Assembly (NCBI RefSeq): GCF_001424705.1
Contig: NZ_LMRA01000023.1
Coordinates: forward strand, 65,004-129,003
From: Methylobacterium sp. Leaf465
GTDB taxonomy: Bacteria; Pseudomonadota; Alphaproteobacteria; Rhizobiales; Beijerinckiaceae
Length of the DNA stretch: 64,000 nucleotides
Reading direction: 5' to 3'
Below are positions 3,652-58,372 of this stretch, one piece after another; the stretch's first letter is position 1, and every line of letters begins with the position of its first letter. The notes below the pieces were generated by a model, which saw only the letters and a program-made list of their open reading frames with translations, did not search any database and was not told the origin of the DNA. Both the position numbers and the translations under genes were made by a program.

Positions 3652-6600
3652 TCAGTGCGCTTCCTCCCAGTTCAGGGCGGCCCGGGCCTCGACCACCAGG
3701 GGCACCCGCAGGGTCAGGGCGGGGGCGGGGGCGTCGACCATGATGCGGGTGATCACCGGCAGGGCCTTCTCGACCTCGTCCTCGGGCGCCTCGAACACGA
3801 GTTCGTCGTGCACCTGCAGGAGCATGCGCACGTTGAGGCGCTCGGCCCGGAGCGCTTCCTCCATGCGGATCATCGCCCGGCGGATGATGTCGGCGGCCGA
3901 GCCCTGGATCGGGGCGTTGATGGCCTGACGCTCGACGGAGGCGCGCTCGTTGGGATTGTTCGAGCGGATCTGCGGGTAGTGGCAGACCCGGCCGAACAGG
4001 GTGGTGACGTAGCCGAGATCCCGGCAGCGGCGCTTGGTGTCGTCGATATAGGCGCGGATGCCGGGGAAGCGTTCGAAATACTGCTTGATGAAGGCCCCGG
4101 CCTCCTCGCGGCCGATGCCGAGGCGGTCGGCGAGGCCGAAGGCCGAGATGCCGTAGATGATGCCGAAATTGATGGTCTTGGCGCGCCGGCGCAGGTCCGG
4201 CGTCATCTCGGCGAGCGGCACACCGAACATCGCGCTGGCGGTGGCCGCGTGGATGTCGATGCCGTCCGCGAAAGCCTGGCGCAGCTGCGGGATGTCGGCG
4301 ATGTGGGCGAGGAGGCGCAGTTCGATCTGGCTGTAATCGGCCGAGATCAGGCGGTTGCCCTCCGCCGCCACGAAGGCGCGGCGGATGCGGCGCCCTTCTT
4401 CCGTGCGGATCGGGATGTTCTGCAGGTTCGGCTCGGAGGAGGAGAGCCGGCCGGTGGTGGTGGCGGCCAACGAGAACGAGGTGTGGACCCGGTCGGTCTC
4501 GCGGTCCGCATGCTGCTGCAGCGAGTCCGTGTAGGTGGATTTCAGCTTGGCGAGCTGGCGCCATTCGAGGATCTTCTTCGGCAGGGGGTGCCCGGCCTGG
4601 GCCAGCTCCTCGAGCAGGGTCGCGGGCGTCGCCCACTGGCCCGAGGGCGTCTTCTTGGCGCCGGGCAAGCCCATCTTGCCGAACAGGATGTCGCCGATCT
4701 GCTTGGGCGAGGAGACCTGGAATCTCTCGCCCGCATCCTCCTGGATCTCCTCCTCCAGGCGCACCAGGATCTGGGAGAAGTCGCCGGACAGGCGGCTCAG
4801 CATGTTGCGGTCGACGCGGATGCCCTGCCCCTCCATCCGGGCGATCACCGGCACCAGCGGGCGCTCCAGGGTCTCGTAGACGGCGACGCGCTTCTCGGCC
4901 ACGAGCCGCGGCTTCATCATGCGCCAGAGGCGCAGGGTGACGTCGGCATCCTCGGCCGCGTAGGCGGTGGCCTTGTCCAGCGCCACCCGGTCGAAGGTGA
5001 TCTTGGCCCGGCCGGTGCCGGCCACGTCCGAGAAGGTGATGGGCTGGTGTCCGAGGTGGCGGCGGGCGAGCTCGTCCATGCCATGTCCGCCCTTGCCGGC
5101 ATCGAGCACGTAGGAGATCAGCATGGTGTCGTCGAAGGGCGTCACGCGGATGTCGTAGCGGGACAGGACGGCGAGATCGTATTTCAGGTTCTGGCCGACC
5201 TTCAGCACGCCGGGATTTTCAAGGAGCGGCTTCAGGCGCTCGATCACCACCTTCGCGTCGATCTGGCCCGCCGCCGGCTGGAACGCCTCCGAGGCCGCCT
5301 TGGCGTCGCCGAACAGGTCTCCGTCCGCGCCCTTGACGGGCTCCTGGTGCCGGAGCGGGATGTAGGCCGCCCGTCCCGGCGCGACGCAGAGGGAGACGCC
5401 CACGAGGTTGGCGTGGTTGGCGTCCAGCGAATCCGTCTCGGTGTCGACGGCGATGACGCCGGCCTCCTCGGCCTCGGCGATCCAGGCGTCGAGTTGCTCG
5501 ACGGACTGAATCGTCTCGTAGGCGGCCGTGTCGAAGGGCTTCACCGCCTCCGCCGCCCGCGCCGCCACGAGGCCGGCGGGGGTCGGCTCGGAGGGGCCGC
5601 GGGGCTTGGGCGCGACGTCGGGCAGGCCGAGATCGGCGAAGGGATCGACCTCGCCGCTCGGCGCGCCGGACGCGGTCTCGGGATCGACCGGCACGGGATC
5701 ACCGTGGGCATCGGGGAAGAACGGGGCGTCGGGCGCGGGCTTGCGGTTCGGCAGCAGCGCCGGGTCGGGCTGCACCGCCTCCGGGTCCACGTGGAGCATC
5801 TGGGCGATGCGCCGGGTCAGGGTGTTGAACTCCATCGCCTTGAGGAAGCCGACGAGTTTCTGCGGATCGGGCTTGGGCAGGCGCAGGTCGTCCAGCGGCA
5901 CCGGGAGGGGCACATTCTCCTCCAGCGCCACCAGCTTTCGCGAGAGCCGAGCCTGATCGATGCTGGCGAGCAGGGTTTCGCGGCGCTTGGGCTGCTTGAT
6001 CTCGGCGGCGCGATCGAGCAACGCGTCGAGGCTGCCGTATTCCTTGATGAGCGCGGCCGCCGTCTTCAGGCCGATGCCGGGCACGCCCGGCACGTTGTCC
6101 GAGGTGTCGCCGATCAGCGCCAGGGCGTCGCCGATCTGCTCGGGGGTGAGGCCCTCCCACTTGGCGATGATCGCATCGCGGTCGAGGTTGCGCTCGGGCC
6201 GGTAGCCGGGCTTGCCCTTGGCGCCGGACTCGAAGTCGTAGAACCGCACCAGGGGGCCGACGAGCTGCATCAGGTCCTTGTCGGAGGACACGATGATGAC
6301 GCCGGCGCCCCGCGCCTCGGCCTGGCGCGAATAGGTGGCGATGAGGTCGTCGGCCTCGTAGCGGATGAGCTCGATCGGCTGCAGGCCGAAGGCCCGCACG
6401 GCGTCGCGCATCAGCGGCATCTGCCGCTTGAGGTCGTCCGGCGCGTCCGGCCGGTGGCCCTTGTAGTCGGGAAACAGCTCCTTGCGGAACGAGCCCTCCG
6501 ACTTGTCGAACACGATGGCCAGATGCGTCGGCATCACCCCGGCCGCGCCCTCCTGCACGAACTGGGCGATCTTGGTGCAGAACAGCCGCACCGCCCCGGT

Positions 6601-6744
6601 GGGCAGGCCGTCCGACGGCCGGGTGTTGTACTTCTGGTCCTGGTTGATCGACTGGAAGTAGGCGCGAAAAATGAACGAAGAGCCGTCGACCAGGATGAGC
6701 TGATCGCCGGGGCCGACGGGCTTTTCGGAGGAGGAAGCGGTCAT
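3652..6744 (-). CDS. polA: DNA polymerase I
   Basis: A 1030-residue enzyme with all three domains. The N-terminal 5'-nuclease starts LILVDGSSFIFRAYFQ. The central 3'-5' exonuclease keeps its acidic residues (AVDTETDSLD, GQNLKYDLAVL, YAAEDADVTLRL), so proofreading should be intact. The C-terminal polymerase has motif A (SADYSQIELRLLAHI), motif B (RRRAKTINFGIIYG) and motif C (LLQVHDELVFE). It fills gaps in excision repair and removes Okazaki primers. I chose ATG 6744; an in-frame TTG at 6771 would add nine residues. The linker between 5'-nuclease and exonuclease (about residues 310-410) is long and Pro/Ala-rich, as is common in alphaproteobacteria. Confidence 0.97.
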   Translation of the reverse strand: MTASSSEKPVGPGDQLILVDGSSFIFRAYFQSINQDQKYNTRPSDGLPTGAVRLFCTKIAQFVQEGAAGVMPTHLAIVFDKSEGSFRKELFPDYKGHRPDAPDDLKRQMPLMRDAVRAFGLQPIELIRYEADDLIATYSRQAEARGAGVIIVSSDKDLMQLVGPLVRFYDFESGAKGKPGYRPERNLDRDAIIAKWEGLTPEQIGDALALIGDTSDNVPGVPGIGLKTAAALIKEYGSLDALLDRAAEIKQPKRRETLLASIDQARLSRKLVALEENVPLPVPLDDLRLPKPDPQKLVGFLKAMEFNTLTRRIAQMLHVDPEAVQPDPALLPNRKPAPDAPFFPDAHGDPVPVDPETASGAPSGEVDPFADLGLPDVAPKPRGPSEPTPAGLVAARAAEAVKPFDTAAYETIQSVEQLDAWIAEAEEAGVIAVDTETDSLDANHANLVGVSLCVAPGRAAYIPLRHQEPVKGADGDLFGDAKAASEAFQPAAGQIDAKVVIERLKPLLENPGVLKVGQNLKYDLAVLSRYDIRVTPFDDTMLISYVLDAGKGGHGMDELARRHLGHQPITFSDVAGTGRAKITFDRVALDKATAYAAEDADVTLRLWRMMKPRLVAEKRVAVYETLERPLVPVIARMEGQGIRVDRNMLSRLSGDFSQILVRLEEEIQEDAGERFQVSSPKQIGDILFGKMGLPGAKKTPSGQWATPATLLEELAQAGHPLPKKILEWRQLAKLKSTYTDSLQQHADRETDRVHTSFSLAATTTGRLSSSEPNLQNIPIRTEEGRRIRRAFVAAEGNRLISADYSQIELRLLAHIADIPQLRQAFADGIDIHAATASAMFGVPLAEMTPDLRRRAKTINFGIIYGISAFGLADRLGIGREEAGAFIKQYFERFPGIRAYIDDTKRRCRDLGYVTTLFGRVCHYPQIRSNNPNERASVERQAINAPIQGSAADIIRRAMIRMEEALRAERLNVRMLLQVHDELVFEAPEDEVEKALPVITRIMVDAPAPALTLRVPLVVEARAALNWEEAH

Positions 6745-6792
6745 CGATCGATCAACGAAAGGAGGGGGCAAATGGCGACGTCGCCGCGAAGA

Positions 6793-10791: not shown

Positions 10792-12273
10792 TCAGGCGGC
10801 CAGGGAGCGCCCGAGGTCGTGGACGCGGCGGAGATCGGCCACGAAGGCCGCGTAGGCCTCCGCCTTCGCCTCGTCCGGCAGGCGCAGCAGGTAGGACGGG
10901 TGCACGGTGATGAACCCCGCATAGGGTTTTTCGAAATCCGCCGGGCCGCGCGCCCGGGTGATCGGGATCTGTTTGCCCGTCAGCGCCAGCACGGCGGTGG
11001 CGCCGAGCGCCACCACGAGCTTCGGCGCGACGAAATCGAGCTCCCGGTCGAGCCACCAGCGATAGTGGCTGACCTCGCCGGCGGTGGGCTTCTGGTGGAT
11101 GCGGCGCTTGCCCCGCTCCTCGAATTTGAAGTGCTTGACCGCATTGGTGAGGTAGGCCTCGCCTCGCGCGATCCCGGCCTCGGCCATCGCCCGTGAGAGC
11201 AGTTGCCCGGCTGGGCCGACGAAGGGGCGCCCCTGGCGGTCCTCCTGGTCGCCCGGCTGCTCACCCACGAAGGCGATGGACGCGCCCAGCGGTCCTTCGC
11301 CGAGGACGGCCTGGGTCGCGCCGGGGACCAGCGGCTCCGAGCGCCGGATGAGGGCGTTGAGCGCCTCCAGCGAATCCGGGGCCTGGTCCGCCATGGCCGC
11401 GACGGCCCGGGCGGGATTGCGCTTGACCGGCATCTGCGGCGTCCTCTCGATCATGGCGCCGGTCCGCGCCGCCGCCTGCCGGACGAGGCCCGGAATGGCG
11501 GCGGTCTCGGGCATGTTGCGCCAGTACTTCTTCGGCATCTCCGCCCGCATCGCGGCGAGGTTCGTCCGGGCGGGGTTGAACGTGCTCTCGTAGTAATCGC
11601 GCCAGCCGGCCTCGAATCCGTCCTGTGCCGGTGCGTCCTCGCGTCGCCCTGGCGGTCCGAACGCGAGGACATCGCCGTCCCAGCGGGCGGAGGCCTCCGG
11701 CGTCAGGATGGTCCAGTCCAGTCCGCGGAAGCGATCGACGAAGAACGGGGCGGCGGCCCCCAGGATGTGGTGGTCCGGCTCGAACCAGGCGACGAAGCGC
11801 TCCGGCCCATCGCCCTCCACGCGGCGGAAGCGCAGGAAGGCGTGCATCTTGTGCAGGTCGCGGGCGATGGCCTTGCGCATCCGCTCCAGGCGATGGACCA
11901 GCGGGTCGCTCGAGATCTCCAGCAAACGCCGCTCGCCGCGCTGGATGCGCCAGATCAGATCGTAGAGCAGGGCGTAGCGCTCAGGGTCGCGGTGCAGCAC
12001 CACCCGGGCGACCATCTCGCCCACCCCGCGCGGCAGGCTCAAGGGAGCTTCCTCCGAGGGCGCGGGGGGCGGCGCCCCGAACAGCCCGGACGCTTCGCCG
12101 ATGGACCACAGCACCCGCTCCGGCGGGATGCCCCGGCCGGCGAGGCGACGGGCCGCGGCCCGGAAGCCCTCGAGGTCGGCGCCCGGGGAGAGGTCGACGG
12201 CTTCGAGCGCGCCGCGCCCGAACCCTGTCCCCTCCGCGGGGGAGGGAGGAGCCGATCGGTGTGCGCCCGCCAT
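10792..12273 (-). CDS. udgX: DUF4130-UdgX fusion, covalent uracil-DNA glycosylase
   Basis: A 493-residue two-domain protein. Residues about 20-265 match DUF4130 (LLYDLIWRIQRGERRLLE, HKMHAFLRFRRV, WRDYYESTFNPART), the domain usually fused to this enzyme. Residues about 300-493 are a family-4-like glycosylase: GEQPGDQEDRQGRPFVGPAG with the Fe-S-type loop, KRRIHQKP at 389-396, and motif HPSYLLR. The KRRIH loop defines UdgX, which excises uracil and stays covalently attached to the abasic site through the His (here His393). The start ATG 12273 lies one base after the stop of the radical SAM gene, so the pair is co-translated. The first 20 residues are encoded by a repeat-like palindrome. Confidence 0.9.
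   Translation of the reverse strand: MAGAHRSAPPSPAEGTGFGRGALEAVDLSPGADLEGFRAAARRLAGRGIPPERVLWSIGEASGLFGAPPPAPSEEAPLSLPRGVGEMVARVVLHRDPERYALLYDLIWRIQRGERRLLEISSDPLVHRLERMRKAIARDLHKMHAFLRFRRVEGDGPERFVAWFEPDHHILGAAAPFFVDRFRGLDWTILTPEASARWDGDVLAFGPPGRREDAPAQDGFEAGWRDYYESTFNPARTNLAAMRAEMPKKYWRNMPETAAIPGLVRQAAARTGAMIERTPQMPVKRNPARAVAAMADQAPDSLEALNALIRRSEPLVPGATQAVLGEGPLGASIAFVGEQPGDQEDRQGRPFVGPAGQLLSRAMAEAGIARGEAYLTNAVKHFKFEERGKRRIHQKPTAGEVSHYRWWLDRELDFVAPKLVVALGATAVLALTGKQIPITRARGPADFEKPYAGFITVHPSYLLRLPDEAKAEAYAAFVADLRRVHDLGRSLAA
12223..12253. repeat. Small GC-rich palindromic repeat, copy inside udgX start
   Basis: The segment holds CCCCTCCGCGGGGGAGGG. Its reverse complement resembles the hairpins at 25528-25556 and 31407-31437 (stem CCCCTCC, loop CGC, stem GGAGGGG, then AGAGGGA). 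It encodes part of the first 20 residues of UdgX, which lie before the family homology begins. The similarity was judged by eye; in a 70% GC genome short matches of this type need checking. Confidence 0.45.
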
Positions 12274-12274
12274 C

Positions 12275-13489
12275 CTAGAACAGCGACAATTGCTTGGGCG
12301 GGTCGGCGAGCCGTGCCCGCAGGTCGAGCCGGTCGGTGAGGCCGCCCGCCGGATGGTAGTCGGCGGCGATGAGGAAGGGCCGCGCCCGCTTCAGGGCCGA
12401 GGTCAGGCGGGCGACGTCGTCGAGGCGCAGGCGGGTGTGCCGGCGGGCCCGGATGATCTTGTCCACCGCCCGGGCGCCGAGGCCTGGCACCCGAAGCAGC
12501 ATCTCGCGGTCGGCGGCGTTCACGTCGACGGGAAAGCGCGCCCGGTGCTTCAGGGCCCAGGCCAGCTTCGGGTCGATGTCGAGGGAGAGCATCCCGTCCT
12601 CGGTGGCATCGGCCACGTCGTCGGGGGTGAAGGCGTAGTACCGCAGCAGCCAGTCGCCCTGGTACAGGCGGTGCTCGCGCTGGAGCGGCGGCGCAGTCAG
12701 CGGCAGGATGGTGGACCCGTCCGGGATCGGACTGAAGGCCGAGTAGTAGACCCGCTTGAGGTTGTAGGAGCCGTAGAGCAGGGCGCTCTTGCGGATCAGC
12801 GCCTCGTCCGTGGTGGCGTCGGCCCCGACGATGACCTGCGTCGACTGCCCGGCCGGCGAGAACCGGCGCTTCTCGGATTTCGCCTCGGCGATGCGCTCGC
12901 CGATCTGCGCGATGGCGTTCTGGATGACGGCGCCGTCCTTCTCGGGGGCCAGGCGCTCCAGGCTCGCCTCGGTGGGCAGCTCGACGTTGATCGACAGACG
13001 GTCGGCGTAGAGGCCCGCCTCCTCGATCAGCCAGGGGCTCGCCTCCGGGATCGATTTCAGGTGGATGTAGCCGCGAAAGCCGTGGTCGCGCCGCAGCGAT
13101 TTCGCCACCCGCGTCAGCAGCTCCATGGTGTGATCGGGCGACTTGATGATGCCCGACGAGAGGAACAGGCCCTCGATGTAGTTGCGCTTGTAGAACTCCA
13201 CCGTGAGGGTCACGACCTCCTCGACGGAGAACTTCGCCCGCTGCACGTTGGAGGAGCGCCGGTTCACGCAGTAGGCGCAGTCGAACAGGCAGTAATTCGT
13301 CAGCAGGATCTTCAGGAGCGAGATGCAGCGCCCGTCCGGCGTATAGGCGTGGCAGATGCCGGCGCCGGTGGTCGAGCCGAGCTCGCCCTTGCCGGCCGTG
13401 CGCTTGGGCGCCCCGGACGACGAGCACGAGGCGTCGTACTTGGCGGCATCGGCGAGGATGCGCAGCTTCTTCGCGAGCATTTCGTCCAT
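12275..13489 (-). CDS. Radical SAM DNA modification/repair protein with clamp-binding tail
   Basis: A 404-residue protein of the family annotated as putative DNA modification/repair radical SAM protein, typically found next to the glycosylase that follows here. The radical SAM cysteines are CLFDCAYC (CX3CX2C) near residues 67-74. Near residues 335-360 there is a helix-hairpin-helix (LLRVPGLGARAVDKIIRAR), a DNA-binding fold. The last five residues are QLSLF, the consensus sliding-clamp-binding peptide. Two further Cys lie near the N-terminus (DASCSSSG). The substrate is unknown. Start ATG 13489; a GTTC-N7-GTTC box lies 19-33 bases upstream. Same strand as recX above and udgX below. Confidence 0.9.
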   Translation of the reverse strand: MDEMLAKKLRILADAAKYDASCSSSGAPKRTAGKGELGSTTGAGICHAYTPDGRCISLLKILLTNYCLFDCAYCVNRRSSNVQRAKFSVEEVVTLTVEFYKRNYIEGLFLSSGIIKSPDHTMELLTRVAKSLRRDHGFRGYIHLKSIPEASPWLIEEAGLYADRLSINVELPTEASLERLAPEKDGAVIQNAIAQIGERIAEAKSEKRRFSPAGQSTQVIVGADATTDEALIRKSALLYGSYNLKRVYYSAFSPIPDGSTILPLTAPPLQREHRLYQGDWLLRYYAFTPDDVADATEDGMLSLDIDPKLAWALKHRARFPVDVNAADREMLLRVPGLGARAVDKIIRARRHTRLRLDDVARLTSALKRARPFLIAADYHPAGGLTDRLDLRARLADPPKQLSLF

Positions 13490-13507
13490 CGACGAGAAAT
13501 GCGCCTC

Positions 13508-13522
13508 GTTCGCGCTTCGTTC
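13508..13522 (-). promoter_or_regulatory. LexA-type SOS box before radical SAM-udgX
   Basis: GTTCGCGCTTCGTTC is an exact match to GTTC-N7-GTTC, the direct-repeat LexA site of alphaproteobacteria. It ends 19 bases before the start codon at 13489, where a bound repressor would block transcription. About two exact matches are expected by chance in 64 kb on both strands, so position next to a repair operon is what makes it convincing. Confidence 0.65.
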
Positions 13523-13612: not shown

Positions 13613-14230
13613 CTAAGCCTCGTGGTCGAGGGGCTCGGCGTCGGGATCGGCCTCGATCACCCGTCGGCCGAGGCCGTACGGGAAGCCGGCGCGGGCCATG
13701 GCGGCGAGATCCCGGTCGCGATGGGCCTCGCGCGTCCCGGGCCGGCGCCAGGGTCCGAGGCGCCGCCGCTTGGCATAGGCCCGGGCCGCTTCCGCCTCAA
13801 GGTCGACGCCCGCCTCCGCCGTCTCGCGCTCGGCCTCCATCGCGCTCGCCACCTGCTCGCGCGACACGCCCTTGGCGGCGAGCTTGGCCGACAGGGCCCG
13901 GGCGGAGGCACCGCGCCGGCGCAGGGCCGCGAGGCGCCCGGCGGTGAAGCGGGCGTCGTCGACGAGGCCGGCGCCGACCGCGCGGGCGACCGTGGCCTCG
14001 ATCGCCTCGGCGAAGGCGCTCGCCTCCTCCCCGCGCAGGCGGCAGCGCTTGTCGACCCGGCGCTTCAGGGTCTGCCGCAGCATCGCCACGGAGGCGCTGT
14101 AGCGTTCGAGGTAATGCAGGGCCGCCCGCTCGAGATAGGCGGGGGTGACGGGCGGGGGCGGTTTGACCTCGGCCCGGTCATCCGGTGCGGCTCCGGTGGG
14201 GCGGCGGGACGCAACGTTTCGCGGTGTCAT
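13613..14230 (-). CDS. recX: Regulatory protein RecX
   Basis: A 205-residue, Arg/Ala/Glu-rich helical protein with the RecX three-helix repeats: AALHYLERYSASVAMLRQTL, the VGAGLVDDARFTAGRLAALR segment (the conserved DDxxFA-like site) and RRGASARALSAKLAAKGV, ending with GFPYGLGRRVIE. RecX caps RecA filaments and modulates recombination and the SOS response. Start ATG 14230 with a GAAG ribosome site. recA is not adjacent in this window; instead recX heads the minus-strand repair block with the radical SAM gene and udgX, 123 bases away. The N-terminal 30 residues are low-complexity. Confidence 0.85.
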   Translation of the reverse strand: MTPRNVASRRPTGAAPDDRAEVKPPPPVTPAYLERAALHYLERYSASVAMLRQTLKRRVDKRCRLRGEEASAFAEAIEATVARAVGAGLVDDARFTAGRLAALRRRGASARALSAKLAAKGVSREQVASAMEAERETAEAGVDLEAEAARAYAKRRRLGPWRRPGTREAHRDRDLAAMARAGFPYGLGRRVIEADPDAEPLDHEA

Positions 14231-22853: not shown

Positions 22854-22881
22854 GGCCGCGAACGAACCGCAGGGGAACACG

Positions 22882-29067: not shown

Positions 29068-30155
29068 GCCTCGACGCGCCCCCGCCCGACCCCGTGCCGC
29101 CGCGCCTTGAGCTGCGTGGCATCGGCCTGCGCTTCGGCGCGGTGCAGGCCCTCGCCGACATCGCCTTCCAGGTCCGGCCCGGCGAGATCCTGGCCCTTCT
29201 CGGTGATTCCGGCTGCGGCAAGAGCACGCTCCTGCGGGCCATCGCCGGCCTCGAGCAGCCGGAGACCGGGACGATCCGCCTCGACGGCGCCCTGCTGAGT
29301 GAGAACGGCCGCGGCGTCGCGCCAGAGGCGCGCGGCGTCGGGCTGATGTTCCAGGACTACGCCCTGTTTCCGCATCTCACCGTGGCGGAGAACGTCCGCT
29401 TCGGCCTTCACGGCAAAAGCCTCCAGGGCAGGTCCGCCGCCGAGGCCCGCGCCCTGGTGCAGGCGCGGCTGGAGCAGGTCGGCCTCGCCGACCGGGCCAA
29501 GAGCTATCCCGGCACCCTCTCGGGCGGCGAGAGCCAGCGCGTGGCCCTGGCCCGCGCCCTGGCCCCGGGGCCGCGCGTCCTCCTTCTCGACGAACCCTTC
29601 TCGAACCTCGACCGGCGCACCCGCGACCGGGTCCGCGACGACACCCTGGCGGTCCTGCGCGCCAGCGGCGCCACGACGCTCCTCGTCACCCACGACCCCG
29701 AGGAGGCCCTGGGCTTCGCCGACCGCATCGCCCTGATGCGGCGGGGGCGCATCGTGCAGGTCGGCACCGGGCCGGACCTGTATTGCCGCCCTGCCACGCG
29801 TTTCGCCGCCCGCTTCTTCGGCGACCTCGTCGAGATCGACGGGACCTGCCGCTCCGGCACCGTGGCGACGCCGTTCGGCCTGGTTCCCGCGCCGGGCCAC
29901 GCCGAGGGGGCCGCCGTGACCCTGTGCCTGCGCCCGGAGGCGATCCGCCTCGGCGCGGCGGGGGCGTCCCTCCGGGCCGTGGTGCGGGCGCGCCGCTTCC
30001 TCGGGGCCGCCGCCCTCCTGAGCCTGTCGGCGGACGGGTTGCCCGAGCCCCTGCACCTGCCCGTGCCGGCGGACGACCCGCGCGAGCCGGGGGATGCGGT
30101 CGGCCTGAGCCTCGATCCGGACCGCGGGTTTATTTTTGCGAACGAGATGGATTAA
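29064..30155 (+). CDS. fbpC: Fe(III) ABC transporter ATP-binding protein
   Basis: A 363-residue ABC ATPase of the FbpC/PotA class. Walker A is GDSGCGKSTLL, Q-loop FQDYALFPHL, signature LSGGESQRVALARAL, Walker B VLLLDEPF, H-loop VTHDPEEAL. Residues 245-363 form the TOBE-type regulatory domain. With fbpA and fbpB just downstream it should power periplasmic Fe3+ uptake. It starts within the hydrolase stop codon. About 136 bases with an ICE-like box separate it from fbpA. Confidence 0.88.
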   Translation: MSLDAPPPDPVPPRLELRGIGLRFGAVQALADIAFQVRPGEILALLGDSGCGKSTLLRAIAGLEQPETGTIRLDGALLSENGRGVAPEARGVGLMFQDYALFPHLTVAENVRFGLHGKSLQGRSAAEARALVQARLEQVGLADRAKSYPGTLSGGESQRVALARALAPGPRVLLLDEPFSNLDRRTRDRVRDDTLAVLRASGATTLLVTHDPEEALGFADRIALMRRGRIVQVGTGPDLYCRPATRFAARFFGDLVEIDGTCRSGTVATPFGLVPAPGHAEGAAVTLCLRPEAIRLGAAGASLRAVVRARRFLGAAALLSLSADGLPEPLHLPVPADDPREPGDAVGLSLDPDRGFIFANEMD

Positions 30156-47837: not shown

Positions 47838-47868
47838 GCGCGGTCACGAGGCTCCGGAGGAACCCACC

Positions 47869-48555
47869 ATGAACGGCCCGATCATCTCGCCCTCGATCCT
47901 CTCGGCGGATTTCGCCGCGCTCGGCGAGGAGGTGCGCGCGGTGTCCGAGGCCGGGGCCGACTGGATCCACCTCGACGTGATGGACGGACACTTCGTGCCC
48001 AACCTCACCTTCGGCCCGGCGGTGATCAAGGCCCTGCGGCCGCACTCGACCAAGCCCTTCGACGTGCACCTGATGATCGCCCCGGCCGATCCCTACCTCG
48101 CGGCCTTCGCGGAGGCCGGCGCCGATGCGATCTCGGTGCATGTGGAGGCCGGCCCGCACATCCACCGCTCGCTCCAGGCGATCCGGGATCTGGGCAAGCG
48201 CGCCGGCATCGCCCTCAATCCGGGGACGCCGGCCTCGGCGATCGAGCCGCTCCTCGACCTCGTCGACCTCGTCCTGGTGATGACGGTCAATCCGGGCTTC
48301 GGCGGCCAGAGCTTCATTCCCTCGACCCTGGAGACCATCCGGCGGATCCGGGCGATGACCGCCGGCCGCGCGATCGACATCGAGGTCGACGGCGGCATCG
48401 GCCCCGAGACCGTGGCCCTGGCCGCCCGCGCGGGCGCCAACGCCTTCGTGGCCGGCAATGCCGTGTTCAAGGGCGGGCCGGCCGGCTACGCGGACCGGAT
48501 CGCGGCGATCCGCGCGGGCGCTGCGGCGGTCGGGGGCGGTCCCCTCTCATGCTGA
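47869..48555 (+). CDS. rpe: Ribulose-phosphate 3-epimerase
   Basis: A 228-residue TIM barrel. Metal-binding motifs are [30 protein letters not shown] and FDVHLM; the phosphate loop is [15 protein letters not shown] and the catalytic Asp is in DIEVDGGI. It interconverts ribulose 5-phosphate and xylulose 5-phosphate, feeding prk. Start ATG 47869 with GGAGGAA. Its last 7 bases overlap cbbY. Confidence 0.96.
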
Positions 48556-57265: not shown

Positions 57266-58372
57266 GTGAGCAAACCTGCGAGACCCACCTCGAAGGCATC
57301 GGCGCCCAAATCGCCGACCCTCCATCCGCTTCCCGAATCGCTCCTCACGCCCGAGCGGCGCGAGGACGACCTGGAGCAGTCGATCCGGCCCTTGAGCCTG
57401 TCCGAATTCATCGGACAGCGGGCGGCGCGCGCCAACATGAGCATCTTCATCGAGTCGGCCAAGAAGACCGGTTCGGCCCTGGACCACGTGCTGTTCGTCG
57501 GGCCGCCCGGCCTCGGCAAGACGACGCTGGCGCAGATCGTCGCCCGCGAACTCGGGGTGAACTTCCGCTCCACCTCCGGCCCGGTCATCGCCAAGGCGGG
57601 CGACCTCGCCGCCCAGCTGACGAACCTGGAAGAGCGCGACGTGCTCTTCATCGACGAGATCCACCGCCTCAATCCGGCGGTGGAGGAGATCCTCTATCCG
57701 GCGATGGAGGATTACCAGCTCGACCTCATCATCGGCGAGGGGCCGGCCGCCCGCTCGGTGAAGATCGAGCTGCCCAAGTTCACCCTGGTCGGGGCCACCA
57801 CCCGCGCCGGCCTGCTGACCACGCCCCTGCGCGACCGGTTCGGCATTCCGATCCGGCTGGAATTCTACGACGTCGACGAGCTCGAGCTCATCGTCAGCCG
57901 GGGCGCCCGGGTGCTCGGCCTCGGCATGTCGCCGGAGGGCGCCAACGAGATCGCCAAGCGCGCCCGGGGGACGCCCCGCATCGCCGGGCGGCTGCTGCGC
58001 CGGGTGCGCGACTTCGCCATCGTGGCCGATGCGCCCACGGTGACCCGCGCCATCGCCGACCGGGCGCTGCAACTCCTCGACGTCGATCCGGCGGGCCTCG
58101 ACGTGATGGACCGCAAGTACCTGACGATGATCGCGAGCTCCTTCAACGGCGGGCCGGTCGGGATCGAGACCATCGCGGCCGCGCTGTCGGAGCCCCGCGA
58201 CGCGATCGAGGACATCATCGAGCCGTTCCTGATCCAGAAGGGGTTTGTCCAGCGCACCCCGCGCGGGCGCATGCTCACGCCCCACGCCTTCCGCCACATG
58301 GGCTTTCCCGAGCCCCGGCGCGAACCGAGCGGGCAGTTCGGCCTGTTCAACGCCGGCGACCCGGACGCCTGA
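57266..58372 (+). CDS. ruvB: Holliday junction helicase RuvB
   Basis: A 368-residue AAA+ motor. Walker A is [20 protein letters not shown], Walker [21 protein letters not shown], sensor 1 [12 protein letters not shown], and the Arg finger in LRDRFGI. The winged-helix domain ends with [17 protein letters not shown]. It drives branch migration with RuvA. Start GTG 57266. Separated from ruvA by the iron genes and Uma2. Confidence 0.97.

Follow-up and report, generated by a model that had tools for sequence, protein, structure and literature searches.

The described system closest to the locus analyzed here is a two-gene COG1573-COG4277 operon, which was placed in the SOS network of Bacteroidetes by comparative genomics (Sanchez-Osuna et al. 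2021, PMC8565304). In its passages on this operon, that work reads the gene pair as a uracil-DNA glycosylase system, i.e., as base excision repair (BER), and refers to earlier SOS reports for COG1573-COG4277 in Verrucomicrobia and Alphaproteobacteria (Erill 2016, da Rocha 2008, cited via PMC8565304). Given these prior reports, the SOS module was already known through comparative genomics, and the SOS link proposed in the initial annotation of our locus has its precedents there. Papers on the Caulobacter SOS regulon and on the Dinoroseobacter LexA network yielded nothing usable on an operon of a radical SAM and a UdgX gene.

Proteins of the UdgX type are defined by the motif GEQPG, an R-loop KRRIH with the cross-linking histidine, motif B of the form HPS(S/A)(L/V)(L/V)R and a 4Fe-4S cluster (PMC10359453). 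DUF4130 was linked to SplB-like radical SAM proteins and uracil-DNA glycosylases (UDGs) by Aravind's group in 2013, with the proposal that these might modify thymines.

Organization of the locus

In the window, i.e., the whole 64-kb stretch of DNA that was analyzed, a radical SAM gene and a DUF4130–UdgX fusion gene lie on the minus strand, separated by exactly one base (position 12274). The initial annotation had described this pair together with an exact LexA box at −33 to −19 and recX upstream on the same strand, and this layout was correct throughout.

10792–12273, minus strand: DUF4130–UdgX fusion gene, 493 aa, cysteine-free (TIGR03915, TIGR03914, PF13566)
12275–13489, minus strand: radical SAM gene of the TIGR03916/COG4277 type, 404 aa (TIGR03916 548 bits; AlphaFold pLDDT 84)
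13508–13522, minus strand: LexA box, exact GAAC-N7-GAAC in gene direction, kept in 80/80 and 87/90 relatives
13613–14230, minus strand: recX, 205 aa, directly upstream of the radical SAM gene

In profile searches, the radical SAM product (rSAM) matched TIGR03916 (rSAM_link_UDG) over residues 5–395 with 548.4 bits (cut-off 343.5); COG4277 corresponds to TIGR03916. The rSAM shares 99% identity with its counterpart in Methylobacterium sp. Leaf117, and the window belongs to a Methylobacterium genome. The fusion gene product exceeded the cut-offs for TIGR03915 (194 bits) and TIGR03914 (297 bits), and PF13566 was also matched. Elsewhere in the window, at 3652–6771 on the minus strand, a 1039-aa open reading frame encodes a putative DNA polymerase I (PolA), as judged by recognizable motifs.

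We rejected recX as a member of the module: it is found upstream in 44/80 close relatives versus only 3/119 loci of the wider set, where little upstream DNA was covered.

The rSAM gene is widespread. It exceeded the cut-off in 51 of 249 genomes of an order sample and in 84/398 of a phylum sample, and was present on 158 plasmid records; the listed ones belong mostly to Alphaproteobacteria. A small number of phage records also contain relatives with about 45–54% identity (CAKLQH020000003.1 and CAKLQF020000004.1, both from Acinetobacter phage MD-2021a, as well as contigs of human faecal phages); two of these relatives carry the annotation "putative DNA modification/repair radical SAM protein".

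LexA boxes upstream of the operon

On the plus strand, positions 13508–13522 are GTTCGCGCTTCGTTC, an exact GTTC-N7-GTTC; read in the direction of the operon, the site is GAACGAAGCGCGAAC and spans −33 to −19 relative to the ATG of rSAM. The pattern occurs five times in the window versus 1.04 times expected, and 133 times exactly in the whole genome versus 38 for the reversed pattern. The number of boxes in the window is, taken alone, weak evidence for a real site. We regard the box as real because of its position and its conservation (80/80 and 87/90, versus a background of 0.33%) rather than its count. The other exact matches in the window lie on the minus strand, at 22864–22878, 29592–29606, 47860–47874 and 57548–57562.

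The initial annotation had made conservation of the box in relatives one of two tests of SOS control. An exact box was found near the rSAM start in 80/80 nearest relatives, a mutually non-independent set, as GAAC repeats in 54 and as GTTC repeats in 26. In Methylobacterium and Methylorubrum it lies either at −33 (GAAC) or at −16 (GTTC), which indicates that the site was turned over while a box was retained throughout. In a separate order and phylum sample, an exact box was present within 150 bp upstream in 87/90 alphaproteobacterial genomes, covering 43/44 genera and 22 families; the remaining three have a box with a single mismatch only. Random 170-bp stretches from the same loci contained a box at the background rate of 0.33%. 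Start codons were set by alignment, and in a few loci the start falls at the box edge.

Outside the Alphaproteobacteria, CTGT-N8-ACAG preceded the rSAM gene exactly in 19/29 genomes and with at most one mismatch in 24/29 (background 0.65%), mostly about 30 bp before the start. The exact alphaproteobacterial box was found in none of these 29 genomes, and the regions upstream of the 90 alphaproteobacterial rSAM genes were in turn free of exact CTGT-N8-ACAG. From this swap between classes (GTTC-N7-GTTC versus CTGT-N8-ACAG) we conclude that the regulatory link was preserved while the LexA motif changed. Five of the 29 genomes outside the class showed neither box type. In three loci from one genus of the same phylum (L202, L203, L206), which carry neither the alpha nor the gamma LexA box, a palindrome-like TCTCATCCAATGAGA is conserved directly before the rSAM start and is possibly another LexA-type site.

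In the genome of the window, lexA (G000:C8) is preceded by GAACCCTTGCAGAACACTTACGGAAC, i.e., GAAC-N7-GAAC-N7-GAAC. Its three GAAC at 11-base steps form two overlapping LexA boxes (G000:C8:24933–24958 and just upstream; about 933–959 in L242). The recA gene carries GAACAAAACAGGTAC, a box with one mismatch. A simple scan found no sigma-70-like promoter upstream of the pair.

With a box in essentially all alphaproteobacterial relatives, which flips or shifts from clade to clade and gives way to CTGT-N8-ACAG in other classes, the proposed LexA/SOS control of the pair stood up well, and by its upstream sequences the operon is almost certainly under such control.

Gene partners of the radical SAM gene

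Profiles for both domains placed DUF4130 next to the rSAM gene in 194/199 loci and UdgX in 171/199, usually fused to DUF4130. UdgX is missing beside 28 rSAM genes, 23 of which keep an adjacent DUF4130; some of the missing-partner cases are contig ends. DUF4130 without UdgX accounts for 18/29 non-alphaproteobacterial loci. Neither domain was detected near the rSAM gene in L086, L092, L200 and L204. Conversely, UdgX exceeded the cut-off in 72 genomes of the order sample, several of them without rSAM. The constant unit is hence rSAM plus DUF4130, with UdgX as a frequent addition, and this constancy of DUF4130 is new here. The initial annotation had the pair handling a lesion that neither partner could process alone; rSAM loci without UdgX and genomes with UdgX and without rSAM leave this claim of obligate joint action unsupported.

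These distributions also bear on the published interpretation of the operon, plain SOS-induced uracil BER, in which error-prone polymerases leave uracil or misincorporated nucleotides for UdgX to take out and rSAM serves as a DNA-binding helper (PMC8565304, in its passages on this operon). The UDG domain does retain UdgX motifs, which speaks for this view. However, DUF4130 stands without UdgX beside rSAM in 23/199 loci, so that uracil excision is unlikely as the constant function, and all six rSAM cysteines (see below) are invariant, which would be unneeded in a mere DNA-binding helper. We therefore consider uracil BER an unlikely account of the operon.

The radical SAM protein

12404–12532, minus strand: helix-hairpin-helix region, residues 320–362, probable DNA-binding (PF12836/PF14520, below Pfam gathering scores)
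13268–13291, minus strand: CX3CX2C radical SAM motif, C67/C71/C74 (45/45 homologues)
13325–13426, minus strand: N-terminal region with C22, C46 and C55, candidate auxiliary Fe-S site (invariant in 45/45 diverse homologues)

Six cysteines of rSAM are invariant in 45 diverse homologues, i.e., C67, C71 and C74 of the CX3CX2C motif and, N-terminal to it, C22, C46 and C55. By their conservation, and by analogy with lipoyl synthase (LipA), which has an N-terminal auxiliary three-cysteine cluster, the latter possibly bind a second, auxiliary Fe-S cluster. The AlphaFold model of rSAM has a pLDDT of 84, with residues 23–55 below 50. Because the N-terminal region has this low pLDDT and the model contains no cluster geometry, we infer the ligand role from sequence conservation and the LipA parallel. 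The helix-hairpin-helix region probably binds DNA, as suggested by its profile matches.

The best fold match of the model was lipoyl synthase 4u0o (Z 17.9, rmsd 3.2, 228 aligned residues), tied with HydE, and biotin synthase was also among the best structural matches. The three extra N-terminal cysteines and the lipoyl-synthase-like predicted fold are new here. Spore photoproduct lyase (SPL) was not among the family or fold matches listed for rSAM, an absence from the list that is compatible with kinship.

Direct reversal in the manner of this lyase would have rSAM split a pyrimidine lesion caused by UV, DUF4130/UdgX serving as accessories. For radical SAM DNA repair there is a precedent in SplB, which is SOS regulated in several species according to PMC8565304, and the thymine proposal of Aravind's group points the same way. 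Against it stand the top structural matches (lipoyl synthase, HydE, biotin synthase) and the assignment of rSAM to COG4277 rather than COG1533; we judge this reading improbable.

A clamp-type tail on the radical SAM protein

12278–12292, minus strand: C-terminal QLSLF, canonical beta sliding-clamp-binding motif (Q400 invariant; 169/199 strict matches)

The clamp-binding consensus is QL[S/D]LF, and the C-terminal motif of Bacillus subtilis PolC is QLSLF (PMC12309361). Transposases carry a C-terminal motif of the same clamp-binding type (PMC4549789). The C-terminus of rSAM likewise reads QLSLF, with Q400 invariant in 45 homologues, and lies at the extreme end of a low-pLDDT tail of the model. 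A strict penta- or hexapeptide clamp motif occurred within the last 16 residues of 169/199 rSAM proteins, compared with 0.8 on average when the tails were shuffled; most of the non-strict tails are close variants, e.g., QASLF or QLGFGF. As controls, 0/171 partner C-termini and 1/4427 windows elsewhere in rSAM contained the motif. In the open-access literature we found no report of a clamp-binding motif in a radical SAM protein, and the clamp-type tail on rSAM is new here. On the basis of this short motif, rSAM is likely to dock on the beta sliding clamp via QLSLF.

A UdgX domain without cysteine

10822–11496, minus strand: UdgX domain, residues 260–484 (TIGR03914 297 bits; fold match 6ajo, Z 27.7)
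11095–11109, minus strand: UdgX R-loop KRRIH, residues 389–393, cross-linking His393 (motif definition PMC10359453)
11251–11265, minus strand: UdgX motif A GEQPG, residues 337–341 (55/57 homologues)
11506–11985, minus strand: DUF4130 domain, residues 97–256 (PF13566 128.6 bits)

The UdgX domain superimposed on Mycobacterium smegmatis UdgX (6ajo) with a Z of 27.7, an rmsd of 1.7 and 45% identity over 196 residues. When the fusion protein was used in fold searches, UDG-domain matches took up the lists, and no structural identity for DUF4130 emerged. GEQPG is present here and in 55/57 homologues; the R-loop KRRIH is likewise present here, and its cross-linking histidine is nearly invariant in the 57 homologues. 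Motif B reads HPSYLLR; it has tyrosine, the majority residue of the homologue set, at the S/A position and otherwise fits.

The whole 493-aa protein contains no cysteine and hence cannot hold the Cys-ligated 4Fe-4S cluster of the family. When 98 fusions were placed on a tree, one clade (SH-aLRT 100) took in all but one of the 24 rows without CxxC, i.e., 23, and the remaining row stood apart. Judged by sequence, we classify the protein as a UdgX-like, predicted cluster-less variant, which keeps the catalytic motifs and departs from the UdgX definition in one feature, the 4Fe-4S cluster. The clade of cysteine-free UdgX with retained cross-linking motifs is new here.

Discussion

We propose an SOS operon for a lesion-processing pair whose site of action is probably the replication fork, and give this complete scheme a probability of about 60%. 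RecA would trigger cleavage of LexA upon DNA damage, and the operon would be expressed. The helix-hairpin-helix region would then hold rSAM on DNA, while the C-terminal QLSLF tail would recruit it to the beta sliding clamp. There, SAM-derived radical chemistry by rSAM, in cooperation with DUF4130 and possibly using a C22/C46/C55 cluster, would process a base lesion that blocks the fork. Where UdgX is fused to DUF4130, it might excise uracil-like bases and cap the abasic site covalently through His393.

Since the tail is of the clamp-docking type, rSAM may act on damage at the copying machinery, which would make it a replisome-docked repair enzyme, i.e., SOS-induced, clamp-loaded and equipped with an N-terminal Fe-S cluster and DUF4130 to attack, by radical chemistry, a lesion that the fork runs into. 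We put this more specific picture forward tentatively, as less likely than not; to our knowledge, there is no example of a radical SAM repair enzyme coupled to replication.

A further reading has the operon write or remove a DNA modification instead of repairing damage, with LexA merely as a switch. It agrees with the NCBI name (modification/repair), with the three extra invariant cysteines of rSAM, and with the LipA/MiaB/RlmN-like matches, among them enzymes that add sulfur or methyl to RNA or to lipoyl groups. Cross-class SOS control and the clamp tail, however, are more in keeping with repair or tolerance than with a constitutive mark, and we regard this reading as the least probable one, very unlikely overall.

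For this widespread operon the regulatory assignment is firm. With its clamp tail and its pattern of cysteines, an obscure SOS radical SAM protein now offers hypotheses open to tests by single-residue mutants. The cysteine-free clade suggests that the cross-linking machinery of UdgX can persist without a Cys-ligated iron-sulfur cluster, which would be of use for mechanism studies and uracil-labelling tools.

Comparison with known systems

The locus shares with the published COG1573-COG4277 operon the pair of a UDG and a COG4277 gene, and LexA control inferred by comparative genomics. The account in PMC8565304, in its passages on this operon, is given without the clamp tail, the N-terminal cysteines, the constant DUF4130 partner or the cysteine-free UdgX. 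M. smegmatis UdgX (PMC10359453, PMC10776899) has the same GEQPG, KRRIH R-loop with the cross-linking histidine and HPS motif B; in contrast, the UdgX described here is fused to DUF4130, is encoded beside an rSAM gene, has HPSYLLR as motif B and is free of cysteine.

SplB resembles rSAM in being a radical SAM enzyme connected with DNA repair and, for some species, with the SOS response; it belongs to COG1533, whereas rSAM belongs to COG4277, and the listed structural matches do not include it. LipA, HydE and biotin synthase share the radical SAM barrel with rSAM (Z about 17–18), at 10–17% identity and with other cysteine spacing, and only rSAM has the helix-hairpin-helix region and the clamp-binding tail. 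SOS polymerases are under LexA control. PolC, Pol IV and ImuB carry a QLxLF-type clamp-binding motif as rSAM does; they are clamp-bound replication and SOS factors, whereas rSAM is a radical SAM enzyme and a putative clamp client.
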